This document shows, piece by piece, positions 23,081-29,893 of a stretch of 41,169 nt of DNA (position 1 is its first letter; every line of letters begins with the position of its first letter). Location of the stretch: NCBI GenBank assembly GCA_947631865.1, contig CANRNF010000020.1, positions 1-41,169 of the forward strand, written 5' to 3'. The position numbers and the translations under genes are program-made. The notes under the pieces were generated by a model, which was given only the letters and a program-made list of their open reading frames with translations, had not been told where the DNA came from and made no database searches. This DNA is from an uncultured Oscillospiraceae bacterium (GTDB taxonomy: Bacteria > Bacillota > Clostridia > Oscillospirales > Oscillospiraceae).

Positions 23081-24109
23081 ATGAACAAACAGCGATATCT
23101 GGCGGAGCTGGGGCAGCTGCTCATCTTCATGACCGGCGCAGACCGGGACCTGACCCTGCACCGGTTCGGGGACCTGTTCGACCAGGCCGGCCCCGGCGGC
23201 GCCGAGGCCCTGGTAGCCCGCATCGGCTCCCCCACGAAAAACGCCATACGCCTCAGCCGCAGCTATATGCCCGGCTGCCTCACAGACGAGATATTGTTCC
23301 AGGGCCTGGACCTGACCGCCCCGGAGCCGGAGGCGTCCCCCGCGCCCGAACCGGCGGCAAAAGCCGCCGAGCCGGAGGAAGCGCCCGCTCCCGCGCCGGA
23401 GAAGGAGGCCCATCCCGCCTACGTCCTGCCCGACCTGCCGGATCTGACGGAGATGCCGGACCTGCCCGATCTTCCCGACCTGCCGGATATACCGGCGGCA
23501 GCCGGGGAGCCCGTCCCGGCCGAGCCTGAGCCGGAAGAGCCAGAAGAGGCCGAGGCGGAAGAGGCCCCGGAGCCCGACAAGACTGAGGACGAGGGACCGG
23601 AAGAAGCGGCCGGACCGGACGAGGAAGAGACGCCTCCCGCGCCGGAAGAGCCCCCCGTGGACGACGCCTCCCCAGCGCCCGGCGTGAAGGTCCCCCACGG
23701 CTTCGTCTCTGTGCCCCTGCATCCCATGGAGGAGCCCGACGAAGAGCCGGAGCGGGAAAAGCCCCAGGTGGAGCGGCCCATGCCCCTGTGGGCGGGGGTT
23801 CCCCTGTTCATCCTGGCGGTCGTCATCCTGTGCCTTCCCCTGGCGGCGCTGATACTGGCGCTGCTGCCGGTACTGCTCCTCCCCGGCGCGGCAGTGCTGG
23901 GCGGCGCGGCGCTGGCCGCCGTGGGCGGGCTGTGGTGCATCGCCTATGTGGCCGACGCGGTGCTCCTGTTCGGCCTGGCTTTCTTTGTTTTGGGCCTGGG
24001 CCTGCTGGTGCTGTGGTGCGGCTTCGCCCTGGATGTGGACCTGGTGAAGCTCTATATCAAGATCGTCGCGGGGCTGAAGCACCTGTTTCTGGGAAGGAGA
24101 GTGAGCTGA
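23081..24109 (+). CDS. Membrane protein with acidic Pro/Glu-rich linker, unknown function
   Basis: 342 residues. The N-terminal helical domain (1-85) resembles the start of DUF1700/HAAS-type proteins (MNKQRYLAELGQLLIF, with a following ALVARIGSP stretch). The middle (about 88-225) is low-complexity and strongly acidic, with tandem PDLPDL repeats near 115-135. Three hydrophobic segments follow (about 245-335), ending in a basic tail (KHLFLGRRVS). It probably sits in the membrane with a cytosolic N-terminus. DUF1700 proteins are often paired with PadR-type regulators; none is seen here. It is coupled to the next gene by a 1-nt gap. Confidence 0.75.
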   Translation: MNKQRYLAELGQLLIFMTGADRDLTLHRFGDLFDQAGPGGAEALVARIGSPTKNAIRLSRSYMPGCLTDEILFQGLDLTAPEPEASPAPEPAAKAAEPEEAPAPAPEKEAHPAYVLPDLPDLTEMPDLPDLPDLPDIPAAAGEPVPAEPEPEEPEEAEAEEAPEPDKTEDEGPEEAAGPDEEETPPAPEEPPVDDASPAPGVKVPHGFVSVPLHPMEEPDEEPEREKPQVERPMPLWAGVPLFILAVVILCLPLAALILALLPVLLLPGAAVLGGAALAAVGGLWCIAYVADAVLLFGLAFFVLGLGLLVLWCGFALDVDLVKLYIKIVAGLKHLFLGRRVS

Positions 24110-24110
24110 T

Positions 24111-24338
24111 ATGCGCAAAGCGTGGCACGTGGTGAGTCTGTTGGCCATGACATGCATCCTTCTGGGCGTCGTGGGCGTGGCCGTGGGCTTTTTCACCGGC
24201 AGCTCCCCCTCCGTCATCGCCAGCCATGGCCATATCCAGCCCTACGGCGAGCGGCTGGCCATGAACTGGGACATCCTGAAGCAGGACTTCACCGCCATCC
24301 TCACTGTGGTCCGGTCCTGGATCGCCAACATCTTCTAA
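24111..24338 (+). CDS. Small single-span membrane protein (75 aa)
   Basis: 75 residues. Residues 8-30 are a TM segment (VVSLLAMTCILLGVVGVAVGFF). The remainder is an amphipathic tail with a second weakly hydrophobic stretch (ILTVVRSWIANIF). No family is recognised. ATG 24111 follows the stop of the preceding gene by one base, so translational coupling is expected. A role with the larger membrane protein is likely but not demonstrable. Confidence 0.75.
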   Translation: MRKAWHVVSLLAMTCILLGVVGVAVGFFTGSSPSVIASHGHIQPYGERLAMNWDILKQDFTAILTVVRSWIANIF

Positions 24339-24362
24339 GGGGCGCATGCGCGCCCCCTTTTC
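24339..24362 (+). terminator. Terminator of the 23081-24338 operon
   Basis: A 7-bp GC stem (24339-24345 with 24350-24356), loop ATGC, then CTTTTC, immediately after the stop codon. Confidence 0.8.
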
Positions 24363-24388
24363 ATCCTTCCCTATAAGGAGATACCGCC

Positions 24389-25564
24389 ATGCCGAAACTG
24401 AGCGACCGCGTCGGCACTTTCACCGACTCCGTCATCCGCCGGATGACCCGCATTTCCAACCAGTACGGGGCCATCAACCTGAGCCAGGGCTTCCCCGATT
24501 TCGACCCGCCCCAGCCCATGCTGGATAGGCTCTCCCAGGTGGCCCATGAGGGTCCCCACCAGTACTCCATCACCTTCGGGGCCAAAAACCTGCGGGACGC
24601 CCTGGCCGCCAAGCAGAGCCGGGCCATCGGCCGGACCGTGGACCCGGAGCGGGAGATCGTGGTGACCTGCGGCAGCACGGAGGCCATGATGTGCGCCATG
24701 ATGACCATCTGCGATCCCGGGGACAAGGTGATGGTCTTCTCCCCCTTCTACGAGAACTATGGCGCGGACGCCATCCTCTCCGGGGCGGAGCCCATCTACA
24801 TCCCCCTGGTCCCGCCCACCTATGACTTCGACCTGGCCCTCATCGAGCAGGGCTTCCGGGACGGAGCCAAGGCCATCATCATCTGCAACCCCTCCAACCC
24901 CTGCGGCAAGGTGTTCACCAAGGAGGAGCTCTCCGCCATCGGCCAGCTGTGCCTCCAATACGACGCCTTCGCCGTCACCGATGAGGTATACGAGCACCTG
25001 GTCTATGCGCCGGCGGAGCACGTGTATATGTCCGCCCTGCCGGGGATGTTCGACCACACCATCACCTGCAACTCCCTGTCCAAGACCTTCTCCGCCACCG
25101 GCTGGCGGCTGGGCTACCTCATCGCCCCGGCATGGGTGGTGGAGGCGGCGCGGAAGGTCCACGACTTCCTCACCGTGGGGGCCGCCGCGCCATTGCAGGA
25201 GGCGGCGGTGGCAGGGCTCCTGCTGCCCGACAGCTACTATGAGGACCTGCGGGCGCTGTACACCGAAAAGCGGGACTATTTTCTCGCGGGCCTGGACAGG
25301 CTGGGTCTTAAGCACAACGTGCCCCAGGGCACCTATTTCGTGCTCATGGATATCTCCGATTTCCTGGCCCTGCCCCAGTTCCGGGGCTGGACGGACCTGG
25401 CCTTCTGCGAGTGGATGATACGGGAGATCGGCGTGGCCGCCGTGCCCGGGTCCAGCTTTTTCAAGGAGCCGGTGAATAACCTTATCCGCTTCCACTTCGC
25501 CCGGCAGAAGCCGGCCATGGACGAGGCCCTGCGCCGGCTGGAAAAGCTGACAAAGCTATTGTAA
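24389..25564 (+). CDS. PLP-dependent class I/II aminotransferase
   Basis: 391 residues, fold type I. Substrate and cofactor motifs: NLSQGFPDFDPPQPM; CGSTEAMM; CNPSNPCGKVFTKEEL with the conserved Asn; FAVTDEVYEHLVY with the Asp and Tyr that contact PLP; SLSKTFSATGWRLGY with the Schiff-base Lys; and C-terminal IRFHFARQK carboxylate-binding Arg. It resembles kynurenine/methionine-type aminotransferases (YbdL-like), which use aromatic or sulfur amino acids with 2-oxo acids; the exact substrate is unknown. The ribosome site is AAGGAG. Single gene with a hairpin after it. Confidence 0.92.
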   Translation: MPKLSDRVGTFTDSVIRRMTRISNQYGAINLSQGFPDFDPPQPMLDRLSQVAHEGPHQYSITFGAKNLRDALAAKQSRAIGRTVDPEREIVVTCGSTEAMMCAMMTICDPGDKVMVFSPFYENYGADAILSGAEPIYIPLVPPTYDFDLALIEQGFRDGAKAIIICNPSNPCGKVFTKEELSAIGQLCLQYDAFAVTDEVYEHLVYAPAEHVYMSALPGMFDHTITCNSLSKTFSATGWRLGYLIAPAWVVEAARKVHDFLTVGAAAPLQEAAVAGLLLPDSYYEDLRALYTEKRDYFLAGLDRLGLKHNVPQGTYFVLMDISDFLALPQFRGWTDLAFCEWMIREIGVAAVPGSSFFKEPVNNLIRFHFARQKPAMDEALRRLEKLTKLL

Positions 25565-25578
25565 AACGCATACAATAA

Positions 25579-25600
25579 GGCCCCCTCTGCCGAGGGGGCC
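25579..25600 (+). terminator. Hairpin after the aminotransferase gene
   Basis: A 9-bp perfect stem (25579-25587 with 25592-25600), loop TGCC. The tract after it (GCGCTATTATTT) is a weak T run, so termination may be partial. Its sequence resembles the terminal hairpins of the type I repeats. Confidence 0.6.
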
Positions 25601-25623
25601 GCGCTATTATTTCGTGGTACCAT

Positions 25624-25783
25624 GGCGCTCCCTGCGTCGACAGTGGCCCTCGCAAACCGTTTCGCTACGCTCAACAATGTTTGTTCGAGGGACACTGCCT
25701 CCTTGGAGCGCCGTCGGCATGCGTTCTACCCGACGTGCGGCTGGAACCGGCAGTGTCACGGGATGCGGTTGACGAGCGTAGCG
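25624..25783. repeat. Long imperfect inverted repeat of unknown origin
   Basis: Nested arms: GGCGCTCC 25624-25631 with GGAGCGCC 25705-25712, and CAGTGGCCCTCG 25641-25652 with CGAGGGACACTG 25686-25697 (one mismatch). A competing pair, CGCTACGCTC 25663-25672 with GAGCGTAGCG 25774-25783, would rearrange the fold. It could be a relic of a small mobile element or a structured 3' region. No ORF with a ribosome site is seen in it. Confidence 0.5.
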
Positions 25784-25839
25784 AGCCTTAGCAGACCGGG
25801 ATACTGTCGGGCCAGGCCGCGCTACGCCAACGTAATTTG

Positions 25840-25905
25840 TTATATATCCGTCGGCAATGCCACCCGCTCCACTAAGATGGTGCCGACCGCCGTTTCAGCG
25901 CTCAT
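25840..25905 (-). pseudogene. 21-codon ORF duplicating the 3' end of the S24 repressor gene
   Basis: The ORF starts at ATG 25905, which overlaps the stop of the upstream peptide frame (ATGA), and encodes MSAETAVGTILVERVALPTDI. The last 14 residues match the C-terminus of the nearby S24 repressor (GTILMERVALPTDV) with conservative changes, and the DNA is similarly close. It is either a remnant of a duplicated repressor gene or a real coupled mini-ORF. It is not a functional repressor. Confidence 0.45.
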
Positions 25906-26100
25906 GGCTGCTGCTCCATATCGTTATCCGAGTGGAGGTTCGCCCATACAGCTAAATCGTCCTGGGCCTTTTCTGCCCAGTAATTCAACGACAGTTTCTT
26001 TTCTCCTCCAGAGACAGCCTCCAGGACGGCATCATCCAGGGCGGCGTCCTTTTGTTCCGGGGTTAACCCCCCCCCGCAAGGTTTTCTTCTCGTCTGTCAT
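25902..26100 (-). pseudogene. Double-glycine leader-like peptide gene interrupted at a nine-G tract
   Basis: ATG 26100 has AGGAGGA 9 nt upstream and a consensus promoter further up. In the literal frame the peptide stops after 22 codons. Removing one G from the nine-G run (26072-26080) opens a 65-residue frame ending at 25902. The frame is MTDEKKTLRGG, then LTPEQKDAALDDAVLEAVSGG, then a 33-residue polar tail beginning EKKLSLNYWAEK. The acidic helix ending in AVSGG looks like the leader of GG-processed peptides (bacteriocins, RiPP precursors). No transporter or modifying enzyme is nearby. It may be phase-variable, decayed, or a sequencing error. Confidence 0.5.
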
Positions 26101-26149
26101 TGCTGTGATTCCTCCTATTTTATTCCCTCGCCAGGGTATGACCTCTTAT

Positions 26150-26178
26150 AGTATCGACCGCTCCGGGGCAGTTGTCAA
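26150..26178 (-). promoter_or_regulatory. Promoter of the GG-leader-like peptide unit
   Basis: Perfect TTGACA (26173-26178), 17-bp spacer, GATACT (26150-26155) on the minus strand. The leader of about 45 nt leads to the ribosome site AGGAGGA. Confidence 0.6.
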
Positions 26179-26227
26179 CCGCTTTGTCCCGAATCAACAA
26201 AAACACGACTCGAATCGCATCTTGGAT

Positions 26228-26339
26228 GGCCCCCTTGTCAAAGGGGGCTGGCAGCGCGAAGCGCTGACTGGGGGATTGGCGTTAGACTTACAACAATCCC
26301 CCCGGCCCTTCGGGCCACCCCCCTTTCACAAGGGGGGCC
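26228..26339 (+). repeat. Multi-hairpin intergenic repeat, type II (copy d)
   Basis: Ends GGCCCCCTT/AAGGGGGC and CCCCCCTTT/AAGGGGGG. Inner hairpins are AGCGC-GAA-GCGCT and GGCCC-TTC-GGGCC. It is the inverted counterpart of copy c (21311-21423). It lies between the S24 repressor stop and the peptide promoter. Confidence 0.85.
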
Positions 26340-26350
26340 TTTTCCATTTT

Positions 26351-27088
26351 TCACACATCCGTCGGCAAAGCCACCCGCTCCATCAATATGGTGCCGAAGC
26401 AGGTCAGGCTCCGCTCCGCGTCCTTCCAGATGGTCACGTCCGCGTCCTTCCGGGCCCGGTTCAGGGCGAAAAGATAGAGGTTCCCCACCATGTCCTGGCA
26501 CACCTGCTTGCACAGGAATTCTCCGTCCAGCAGCAGCGCCGCCACCTCTCCGTCCCGGGGCGCCCGCTTCTGGCCCAGGGCGACGGACCCGTCGGGCAGG
26601 TACGGCTCCATGGAGTTGCCGTTGATGCGCACGGCAAAGTCCGCGCCGCTGTCCGCCGGGACCTGGTAGTCCTCCCAGGGATTGCCGAAATCCGGATCGC
26701 CCCGGCCGGCGGCAAAGCTGTTGCCGATGAGGGGGATGACCTTGAAGGCGGGCGTGACCGCCGCGCCGCTCAGGGCCATGCGCTGCTTCTCCTCGCCCAT
26801 CACCGCCCGGACCACCCGCTTGCCGTGGCCGTCCAAGCCGTCGTAGTCCCGGGCCAGGCCCAGGGCCTCCCCGGAGAGGCCGGGGGCTTTCGGCCCATCC
26901 ACGAAATCCGCCACGCTCCGGTCCAGGGCCCCGGCGATCTTCGCCATGACTTGGATGGTGGGGCTGGCGGTGACGCCGCCGGTGATCTTGTTCAGCGTGC
27001 CCTTGGGCACCCCGGACCGGCGGGCCAGCTCGTCGATGGTCATGCCCGCCTCCAGGCGGTACCGGGTGATCTGCTTTCCGATGTCCAT
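26351..27088 (-). CDS. XRE-family repressor with S24 (LexA-like) self-cleaving domain
   Basis: 245 residues. The N-terminal helix-turn-helix (5-60; IDELARRSGVPKGTLNKITGG) is followed by a linker, then an S24 peptidase fold (about 115-225). The fold has a candidate cleavage bond at A127-G128 (FAAGRG), nucleophile S159 in INGNSMEPYLPDG and general-base K194 in EFLCKQV. This is the design of phage CI-type repressors that self-cleave on RecA/SOS signals. It is divergent from a phage-type HTH gene and has a consensus promoter (27148-27176). ATG 27088 follows GGGAGGGAG. The likely targets are the repeated TTTTCGG sites near 27190-27234. Confidence 0.92.
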   Translation of the reverse strand: MDIGKQITRYRLEAGMTIDELARRSGVPKGTLNKITGGVTASPTIQVMAKIAGALDRSVADFVDGPKAPGLSGEALGLARDYDGLDGHGKRVVRAVMGEEKQRMALSGAAVTPAFKVIPLIGNSFAAGRGDPDFGNPWEDYQVPADSGADFAVRINGNSMEPYLPDGSVALGQKRAPRDGEVAALLLDGEFLCKQVCQDMVGNLYLFALNRARKDADVTIWKDAERSLTCFGTILMERVALPTDV

Positions 27089-27110
27089 GGCTCTCCCTCC
27101 CTTTGTCGCT

Positions 27111-27155
27111 GACTGGTATCTTGTGGTACGATAGCGTCTTTGTCGCTATTGTACC
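27111..27155 (-). repeat. Truncated two-hairpin promoter-associated repeat (copy D)
   Basis: It retains the end GACTGGTATC (27111-27120) and the variable hairpin (GGTACGATAGCG 27125-27136 with CGCTATTGTACC 27144-27155, one G-T pair), but lacks the rest of the long hairpin of copies A and C. It lies just upstream of the S24 repressor gene in the same orientation as the other copies. Confidence 0.6.
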
Positions 27156-27176
27156 TGAAACGGGCAGTCCTGTCAA
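27148..27176 (-). promoter_or_regulatory. Promoter of the S24 repressor gene
   Basis: Perfect TTGACA (27171-27176), 17-bp spacer, TACAAT (27148-27153) on the minus strand. The -10 is the first arm of the copy D hairpin. Confidence 0.7.
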
Positions 27177-27189
27177 TGATAAAATCTAC

Positions 27190-27237
27190 TTTTCGGAATT
27201 ATTTCCCCTTGACAAATCCCATTTTCGGGATTATACT
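27190..27237 (+). promoter_or_regulatory. Promoter and likely operator of the 27290 HTH gene
   Basis: TTGACA (27209-27214), 17-bp spacer, TATACT (27232-27237). A 13-bp direct repeat TTTTCGGRATTAT occurs at 27190-27202 and 27222-27234, the second inside the spacer. There is also an inverted ATCCC/GGGAT pair, and a reverse half-site (ATCCGAAAA) lies near 27269. These are good candidate sites for the divergent S24 repressor. Confidence 0.65.
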
Positions 27238-27289
27238 TGGCCCATAAATACCGAGAACGGAATGAGACATCCGAAAAGGAGGAGACACA

Positions 27290-27727
27290 ATGGACTGGAA
27301 ACAGGAGGCGGCGGAGAAGCTGACACAGTACGAGGCCCGGCGGCAGTCTTTGGAGAACATCCCGGCGGAGATACGCCGGCTGGAGCAGGATTATACCGCC
27401 CTGCGCACCTCGACGGTGGACGCCATACCAACCCATGGGAACGGCAGCCGCCGGGAGGACGCCATGCTGTCCAACATCGTGCGGCGGGAGGAGCTGGCCC
27501 GGCAGCTGGAGTCGGTGAAGGCATGGGTAGCCCTGACGGACGGCGGCCTCGCGGCCCTGAACGAGGAGGACCGGCTGGTGCTGGACCGGTTCTACGTCCA
27601 CCGGCGCAAGGGGGCCTGCGAACAGCTCTGCGAGGAGCTGGACCGGGAGAAGGCCCAGGTCTACCGCCGGCGGGACCGGGCGCTCCGGCGCTTCACCCTG
27701 GCCCTCTACGGCGGGCTGGAATCGTAA
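27290..27727 (+). CDS. Phage-type HTH regulator, sigma-70 region 4-like
   Basis: 145 residues. An N-terminal coiled coil (1-50; AAEKLTQYEARRQSLENIPAEIRRLEQDY) and a helical middle (HGNGSRREDAMLSNIVRREEL) precede a C-terminal sigma-region-4-like HTH (ALNEEDRLVLDRFYVHRRKG, REKAQVYRRRDRALRRF). This matches the RinA/ArpU-like late regulators common in Clostridia prophages. It probably activates transcription of prophage or accessory genes; no such genes follow here. It is under a consensus promoter likely controlled by the divergent S24 repressor. A GC hairpin (27738-27764) after the stop has its T run on the minus side. Confidence 0.82.
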   Translation: MDWKQEAAEKLTQYEARRQSLENIPAEIRRLEQDYTALRTSTVDAIPTHGNGSRREDAMLSNIVRREELARQLESVKAWVALTDGGLAALNEEDRLVLDRFYVHRRKGACEQLCEELDREKAQVYRRRDRALRRFTLALYGGLES

Positions 27728-27787
27728 AAAGCAAAACGCCCCTCCGGCGCTGCCGGAAGGGGTGAACTATATCGCACCTCTCAAAAG

Positions 27788-27922
27788 GCCCCCTCAGACG
27801 AGGGGGCTGTCGCCGCTGAAAGCGGTGACTGAGGGAGGGAAACTCCCGTAAGGCTGGTGATTGTCTATCTCTCCCTCCGTCTCGGTCTGACGGCCGAGCC
27901 ACCTCCCTCGTCCGAGGGAGGC
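27788..27922 (+). repeat. Multi-hairpin intergenic repeat, type I (copy e)
   Basis: It has the same ends and right half as copy a (6279-6409), and a perfect left terminal hairpin GCCCCCTC/GAGGGGGC. Inner hairpins are CCGCTGAAAGCGG and CGGTCTGACGGCCG. It lies between the HTH gene and the groEL terminator. Confidence 0.85.
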
Positions 27923-27923
27923 T

Positions 27924-27953
27924 AAAATGAAGGCCGCGCCTTTCGGCGCGGCC
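27924..27953 (-). terminator. Terminator of groESL
   Basis: A 9-bp perfect stem (27932-27940 with 27945-27953), loop GAAA on the minus strand, followed by TTCATTTT, 7 nt past the groEL stop. Confidence 0.85.
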
Positions 27954-27960
27954 AACCTTT

Positions 27961-29893
<1,933 letters not shown>

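Follow-up and report, generated by a model that had tools for sequence, protein, structure and literature searches.

A G tract as a likely slippage switch in a family of double-glycine-leader peptide genes from an uncultured Oscillospiraceae genus

Main finding

The minus-strand peptide gene in the window, by which we mean the whole 41,169-nucleotide stretch of DNA analysed, is real and belongs to a family, and the copy as assembled is out of frame. At least 28 copies of such double-glycine (GG)-leader peptide genes, each with a run of Gs near the 5' end, are present in six of the 35 genomes of one Oscillospiraceae genus. We consider it probable that the G run of this multigene family is a slippage switch, i.e., that these genes are phase variable. 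This interpretation is favored because the tract, its place, its spread of lengths, the occurrence of both frame states and the intact peptide frames all match phase-variable genes. Replication slippage would change the length of the run such that each copy turns on or off independently and reversibly, and in the off state translation of the leader peptide would stop early.

The window gene and its family

The promoter of the window gene (26150..26178, minus strand) is of the sigma-70 type, with TTGACA at 26173-26178 and GATACT at 26150-26155 separated by a 17-bp spacer, and is followed on the same strand by an AGGAGG ribosome site (26111..26116) and an ATG start codon at 26098-26100. An earlier sequence-only reading had proposed a TTGACA-17-GATACT promoter, a strong ribosome site and an ATG at 26100, all of which were confirmed on the minus strand. 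As assembled, the frame from this ATG (26032..26100, minus strand) runs for 22 residues, MTDEKKTLRGGVNPGTKGRRPG, beginning with MTDEKKTL before the G run, and then meets a stop, which is the out-of-frame state. The proposed switch is a run of nine Gs at 26067..26075 (minus strand) whose place is kept in the 28 copies; the sequence-only reading had rightly described nine Gs breaking the frame but placed them five bases away, at 26072-26080. From the run onward, the peptide frame (P0001; 25902..26066 including the stop, minus strand), which is backed by homologues, holds 54 residues in which the leader LTPEQKDAALDDAVLEAVSGG ends in LEAVSGG and is followed by a core of 33 residues, in agreement with the LEAVSGG ending and polar 33-residue tail claimed previously. 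The predicted cleavage site lies at the two Gly codons (26004..26009, minus strand). A search of positions 24000-28500 of the window gave no Rfam match up to an E-value of 0.1.

With the post-run frame of the window as query, four further copies were found in the window's own assembly (G000) at E <1e-5, together with two weak matches, and a profile search gave matches at E 0.01 in nine of the 35 genus genomes. A DNA pattern of leader plus six or more Gs recovered 27 copies in six of the 35 (G000, G033, G026, G030, G009, and G034), to which G000:C10 was added to give 28; the catalogue includes orthologues, with no entry dropped, so its copies are not independent. Outside the 28 stand a copy with a GTG start at G033:C35 and a gene at G033:C4 (L230) whose leader, which we take to be Nif11-like, is broken by ten Gs. 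The runs are 6-12 Gs long, nine being the commonest length (16 of 28 copies), where lengths are those of the assembly consensus and Illumina reads misbehave in G tracts according to the accessible text of PMC9187656. The register of the ATG relative to the peptide frame is spread over all three possibilities, with offsets of 0, 1, and 2 in 11, 10, and 7 copies, respectively. Identified in each copy from its GG motif, the frame after the run is open without exception (28 of 28), while the remaining two frames over the same stretch meet a stop in 55 of 56 cases. The G run is therefore more than a chance feature, since all 28 homologous leaders have it in the same position, with the peptide frame open throughout and the other frames stopped in nearly every case. 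Such a long homopolymer that decides the frame within the 5' coding region is what is found in simple-sequence-repeat phase-variable genes. An isolated pseudogene is ruled out by the 28 copies with intact peptide frames.

The window's assembly carries 11 copies, three in frame and eight out, and all six of those with window-like cores are out of frame. A poly-G plus TAACCCC pattern was found in three of 400 genomes of the bacterial family, all three from this genus, and viral contigs gave no match to the one pattern searched. Relatives in a contig collection come from uncultured Oscillospiraceae MAGs labeled Lapin, so their source is probably the rabbit gut, and the host lineage is likely gut-dwelling. 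Some homologues have no G run (L009, L011, and L012, beginning MSEEKKLDEKTGA...) and share a different upstream region that is hairpin-rich in look.

Frame states, cassette exchange and competing explanations

Both states of the proposed switch can be seen among close relatives. The out-of-frame copies G033:C7, G000:C37, and G033:C8b correspond to the in-frame public proteins P0003, P0008, and P0010 with zero differences after the run, and in addition P0009 lies two residues from G033:C8a and P0003 one residue from the window copy; these counterparts are protein records in which the DNA run length is not visible, and P0008, which has no stated source, may stem from the window's own sample. Two further counterpart pairs are visible as DNA. 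G000:C9 has nine Gs and is in frame, whereas G033:C16, in the same neighborhood, has seven and is out; conversely, G000:C78c has ten Gs and is out of frame, whereas G033:C35b has nine and is in frame, with near-identical peptides. Tract length thus differs between close relatives, and both states were seen in these two pairs and the three alleles above. Over the last 12 leader codons, pN/pS is 0.51 among out-of-frame copies (136 pairs) against 0.71 among in-frame copies (55 pairs), the pairs not being independent, and hence the out-of-frame copies still show constraint and drift no more freely than those in frame. A codon comparison of six close pairs found very few changes. The earlier proposal of a GG-leader-like peptide switched by G-run length is therefore supported: the 28 copies occupy every register, and some alleles that are out of frame have counterparts in frame. 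Uniform nine-G runs and decayed homologues, which it had named as counting against it, did not appear: lengths vary and the homologues are not decayed.

Several copies are more than single genes. An overlapping start leads into a second GG peptide in eight copies, and two more were seen in flanks. In the window, this second, overlapping (ATGA) gene is replaced by a remnant of 21 codons (25840..25905, minus strand) that ends much like the S24 repressor gene, and at the matching G033 locus a second GG peptide stands where the window has the remnant. Elsewhere, the flanks of G033:C1 and G000:C11 are 93% identical upstream and 96% identical downstream, and the two-gene cassette of G033:C1 is 96.6% identical to that of G000:C97 over 380 bp. 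Base by base, G033:C1 tracks C11 into the first leader codons, changes over to C97 immediately ahead of the G run, and returns to C11 where the second gene ends. This comparison suggests the transfer of a two-gene peptide cassette, one of whose borders falls no more than about 15 bp ahead of the run, and recombination beside the run may add an exchange of cores to the switch.

The position of that border would also suit a different account, in which the G run and its flank serve mainly as a joint for swapping cassettes between loci and the change of frame is a by-product. However, it is the border of a single swap event, the stretch in which it falls is conserved in many copies so that homology alone could place it there, and counterparts that differ in run length only need no swap at all; we regard this account as unlikely. 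A little harder still to credit is that the peptide is made from an out-of-frame gene by programmed frameshifting, or by slippage of RNA polymerase in the G run, which would make the run a fixed decoding signal with no heritable switch. Long G runs could slip in transcription, and 17 of the 28 copies are out of frame yet keep the peptide frame intact, as a decoding signal would allow. A programmed signal should, however, favor one offset, whereas offsets 1 and 2 are near-equal (10 and 7 copies) and 11 copies are in frame; this lack of a preferred offset is why programmed frameshifting is not our first choice, and identical peptides occurring in both frame states also speak against it. Finally, the G tracts might be misread, with the gene always in frame in the cell. 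The run lengths are a consensus and Illumina data are error-prone in such tracts in the accessible part of PMC9187656, but lengths from six to 12, counterparts differing by two Gs, and a T[AT] border after 40 of the 45 long G000 runs are hard to obtain from assembly or sequencing error, and we judge it very improbable. Overall, a slippage switch remains the reading that we prefer.

A common promoter box and its candidate regulator

The family copies share a stretch just 5' of the -35 element, a conserved LytTR-like box with half-sites 21 bp apart. Box comparison places the upstream half-site of the window copy, TGCGATTCGAGTCGTG, at 26204..26219 and the downstream half-site, TTGATTCGGGACA, 21 bp from it, at 26185..26197 (both minus strand). 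The pattern RATTCGGGACAANNNNNTTGAYN, allowing up to two mismatches, has 25, 16, 4, 6, 12, and 9 sites in G000, G033, G026, G030, G009, and G034, respectively, while the reversed pattern has 0, 0, 1, 4, 1, and 1 in the same genomes, giving totals of 72 and 7; the enrichment is weak in G030 (6 vs. 4) and G026 (4 vs. 1). The consensus from 61 distinct boxes is TGCAATTCggGTCGTGtTTTTgtCGATTCGGGACAAAgC.aTTGAC, and identity between half-sites is highest at an offset of 21 bp (0.69), followed by a smaller maximum at 16 bp (0.51). Of the 72 sites, 64 were read and assigned to genes by reading of the loci: 43 precede GG peptides, 13 precede signal-peptide proteins or lipoproteins, six precede GH3, radical SAM, AIM24-like or patatin genes, and two are unassigned, where the signal-peptide, lipoprotein and AIM24 labels are presumptive on our part. 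One box-led GH3-family gene (L103:294-340) begins MSEERKIQRGGVNP, in which the G run is broken by a T and looks like a frozen switch. In G009, two box-led GG peptide genes (L113 and L115) have a run of seven Cs, one being in frame and the other out.

Direct repeats of 9 bp lying about 21 bp apart upstream of the -35 element are the arrangement of LytTR regulons. In the accessible texts, the binding sites reported for LytTR regulators are 9-bp direct repeats separated by 12 bp (PMC2766830), and such sites often lie some 10 bp ahead of the -35 element (PMC6193735). At G000:C9, a box-led cluster of GG peptides that includes a poly-G copy ends in a GHKL kinase gene, with a LytTR response regulator gene convergent to it. 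This LytTR/GHKL pair was found in four of the six carrier genomes; relative to G000 it is 94-97% identical in G033 and 71-74% identical in G026 and G030, while G009 and G034 gave matches only near 32% among part of their LytTR loci. Analogy and position lead us to infer that the regulator acts through the 21-bp box; the LytTR-type response regulator and the GHKL (AgrC-like) kinase would then activate the family via these direct repeats. The response regulator gene itself has nine or ten Gs immediately ahead of its start in G030 and G026 (L058, L059), with a different relation to the frame in the two genomes; no such run precedes it in G000 and G033.

The neighboring HTH/S24 repressor gene (26351..27088, minus strand) had previously been taken as a sign of an SOS-linked accessory unit. 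Among the 234 sequences searched, the S24 protein was found at just two places, the window locus and its G033 counterpart (97.6% identical), and an inverted-repeat element with related copies elsewhere (26230..26336) separates the repressor gene from the peptide promoter. We give virtually no credence to control by this repressor, which is encoded some 250 bp upstream in the same orientation and is also present at the G033 locus, since it is absent beside the other copies searched, the element common across the family is the 21-bp box, and the inverted repeat intervenes; on comparison, the repressor looks like an incidental neighbor.

Leader class and export

The leaders are short, end in V[SAT]GG and precede variable cores, as expected of double-glycine leaders, and their sequences weakly resemble ComC/class II leaders. 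The ComC family (PF03047) scored 18.8 bits on P0008 (E 0.0014), below its cut-off of 20.4, and P0001 and P0003 match no family. For the NHLP/Nif11 leader models, no NCBIfam match was found for P0001, P0003, P0008, P0023, or two typed peptides of the family.

No ABC transporter or modifying enzyme adjoins the window copy, where the sequence-only reading had suggested looking for one, and a C39-peptidase exporter is instead found elsewhere in five of the six carrier genomes, including the window's own. The exception, G009, has poly-G copies and no C39 match in an assembly that is 78% complete. Under a stricter cut, C39 is present in 14 of the 35 genus genomes, nine of which have no poly-G copies. 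The G000 exporter is of the NHLP type, scoring 951 bits with TIGR03796 (cut-off 853) and 731 with TIGR03797 (cut-off 709), and an HlyD-like fragment at the locus reached 43 bits against a cut-off of 156. GG-leader peptide genes follow this exporter pair, and no cyclodehydratase or LanM was found among nine proteins scanned at the locus. We infer that the poly-G peptides use this C39/NHLP-type exporter, by which they would be cleaved at the GG motif and released, and the mature peptides may have an antagonistic, bacteriocin-like role.

Wider G tracts and implications

Long G tracts are not restricted to the peptide genes. The G000 genome has 45 runs of at least nine Gs; the next two bases are T and then A or T in 40 of them, as opposed to four preceded by [AT]T. 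Among the loci analysed, 59 of 73 runs with at least eight Gs are followed by T, the base least often found after runs of four to six. At L208, nine Gs followed by tagacattattttcg or ttagacattattttcg occur in each of three similar stretches spaced at about 200 bases. Two similar genes at G033:C6 (L217 and L219), which we take to be methyltransferases, have ten and nine Gs at the same place and differ in their relation to the frame, perhaps indicating a wider set of G-tract switches.

Taken together, these genomes may hold a phase-variable secretome, a proposal in which we have about as much belief as doubt. One LytTR-type quorum circuit would drive GG-leader peptides by the tens, and independent G-tract switches would control as many as eleven of them in a genome; whole cassettes would be exchanged at the joint beside the run, the regulator gene itself would lie beside a G tract in two species, and each cell would broadcast a different mixture. 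The outcome would be a population whose cells release differing subsets of a large peptide set. G-tract phase variation is most familiar from surface structures, chiefly those of Gram-negative bacteria; here, it would be built into predicted secreted peptides of an uncultured, likely gut lineage. If this is true, a clone hedges its chemical interactions cell by cell, off copies are missed or truncated by gene finders, and read-level metagenomes could be used to measure which peptides are selected on or off.

Comparison with known systems

Searches of the open-access literature, with most subscription papers lying outside it, yielded no such system in clostridia, including under clostridial homopolymer phase variation. 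The nearest known case is napR of the gonococcal nap island. In the accessible text, this gene for a GG-motif peptide has a poly-G tract of 6-12 close to its 5' end, the same range as here, and is considered likely to be phase variable; whether the GG leader is retained depends on the length of the tract, and a C39 peptidase gene lies on the same island (PMC11798529). As described there, the nap island of Neisseria has one poly-G gene, along with the poly-T gene napC, and a putative DNA-binding role is given for napR. In contrast, the present family comprises 28 scattered copies in a clostridial genus that share a promoter box, and one cassette appears to have been swapped. Among Gram-positive gut bacteria, the closest parallel is the Bifidobacterium breve pilus, where the tract is likewise intragenic and where slippage was measured, with lengths that vary and shift in mice; the accessible account concerns pilus operons, with two pilus loci in the strain, whereas the genes here encode predicted secreted peptides (PMC9187656).

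The NHLP/Nif11 precursors also resemble this family in their GG-ended leaders, hypervariable cores and possible location far from the TIGR03794/03796/03797 exporter, although, from the accessible text, those leaders average 70-83 residues, whereas the present ones have about 26-32 and match no NHLP/Nif11 model (PMC2887384). The candidate control is closest to the LytTR regulons of Sil/Blp and HdrR, for which the accessible texts describe 9-bp repeats with a spacer of about 12 bp just upstream of the -35 element, and GG peptides (PMC6193735, PMC2766830). The likeness extends to the presence here of one peptide cluster adjoined by genes for a GHKL kinase and a LytTR regulator. However, the targets here are more numerous and scattered, some carry putative G-tract switches, and the box is a candidate binding site. 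The scale, common control and cassette exchange of this system in a clostridial lineage seem to be new.
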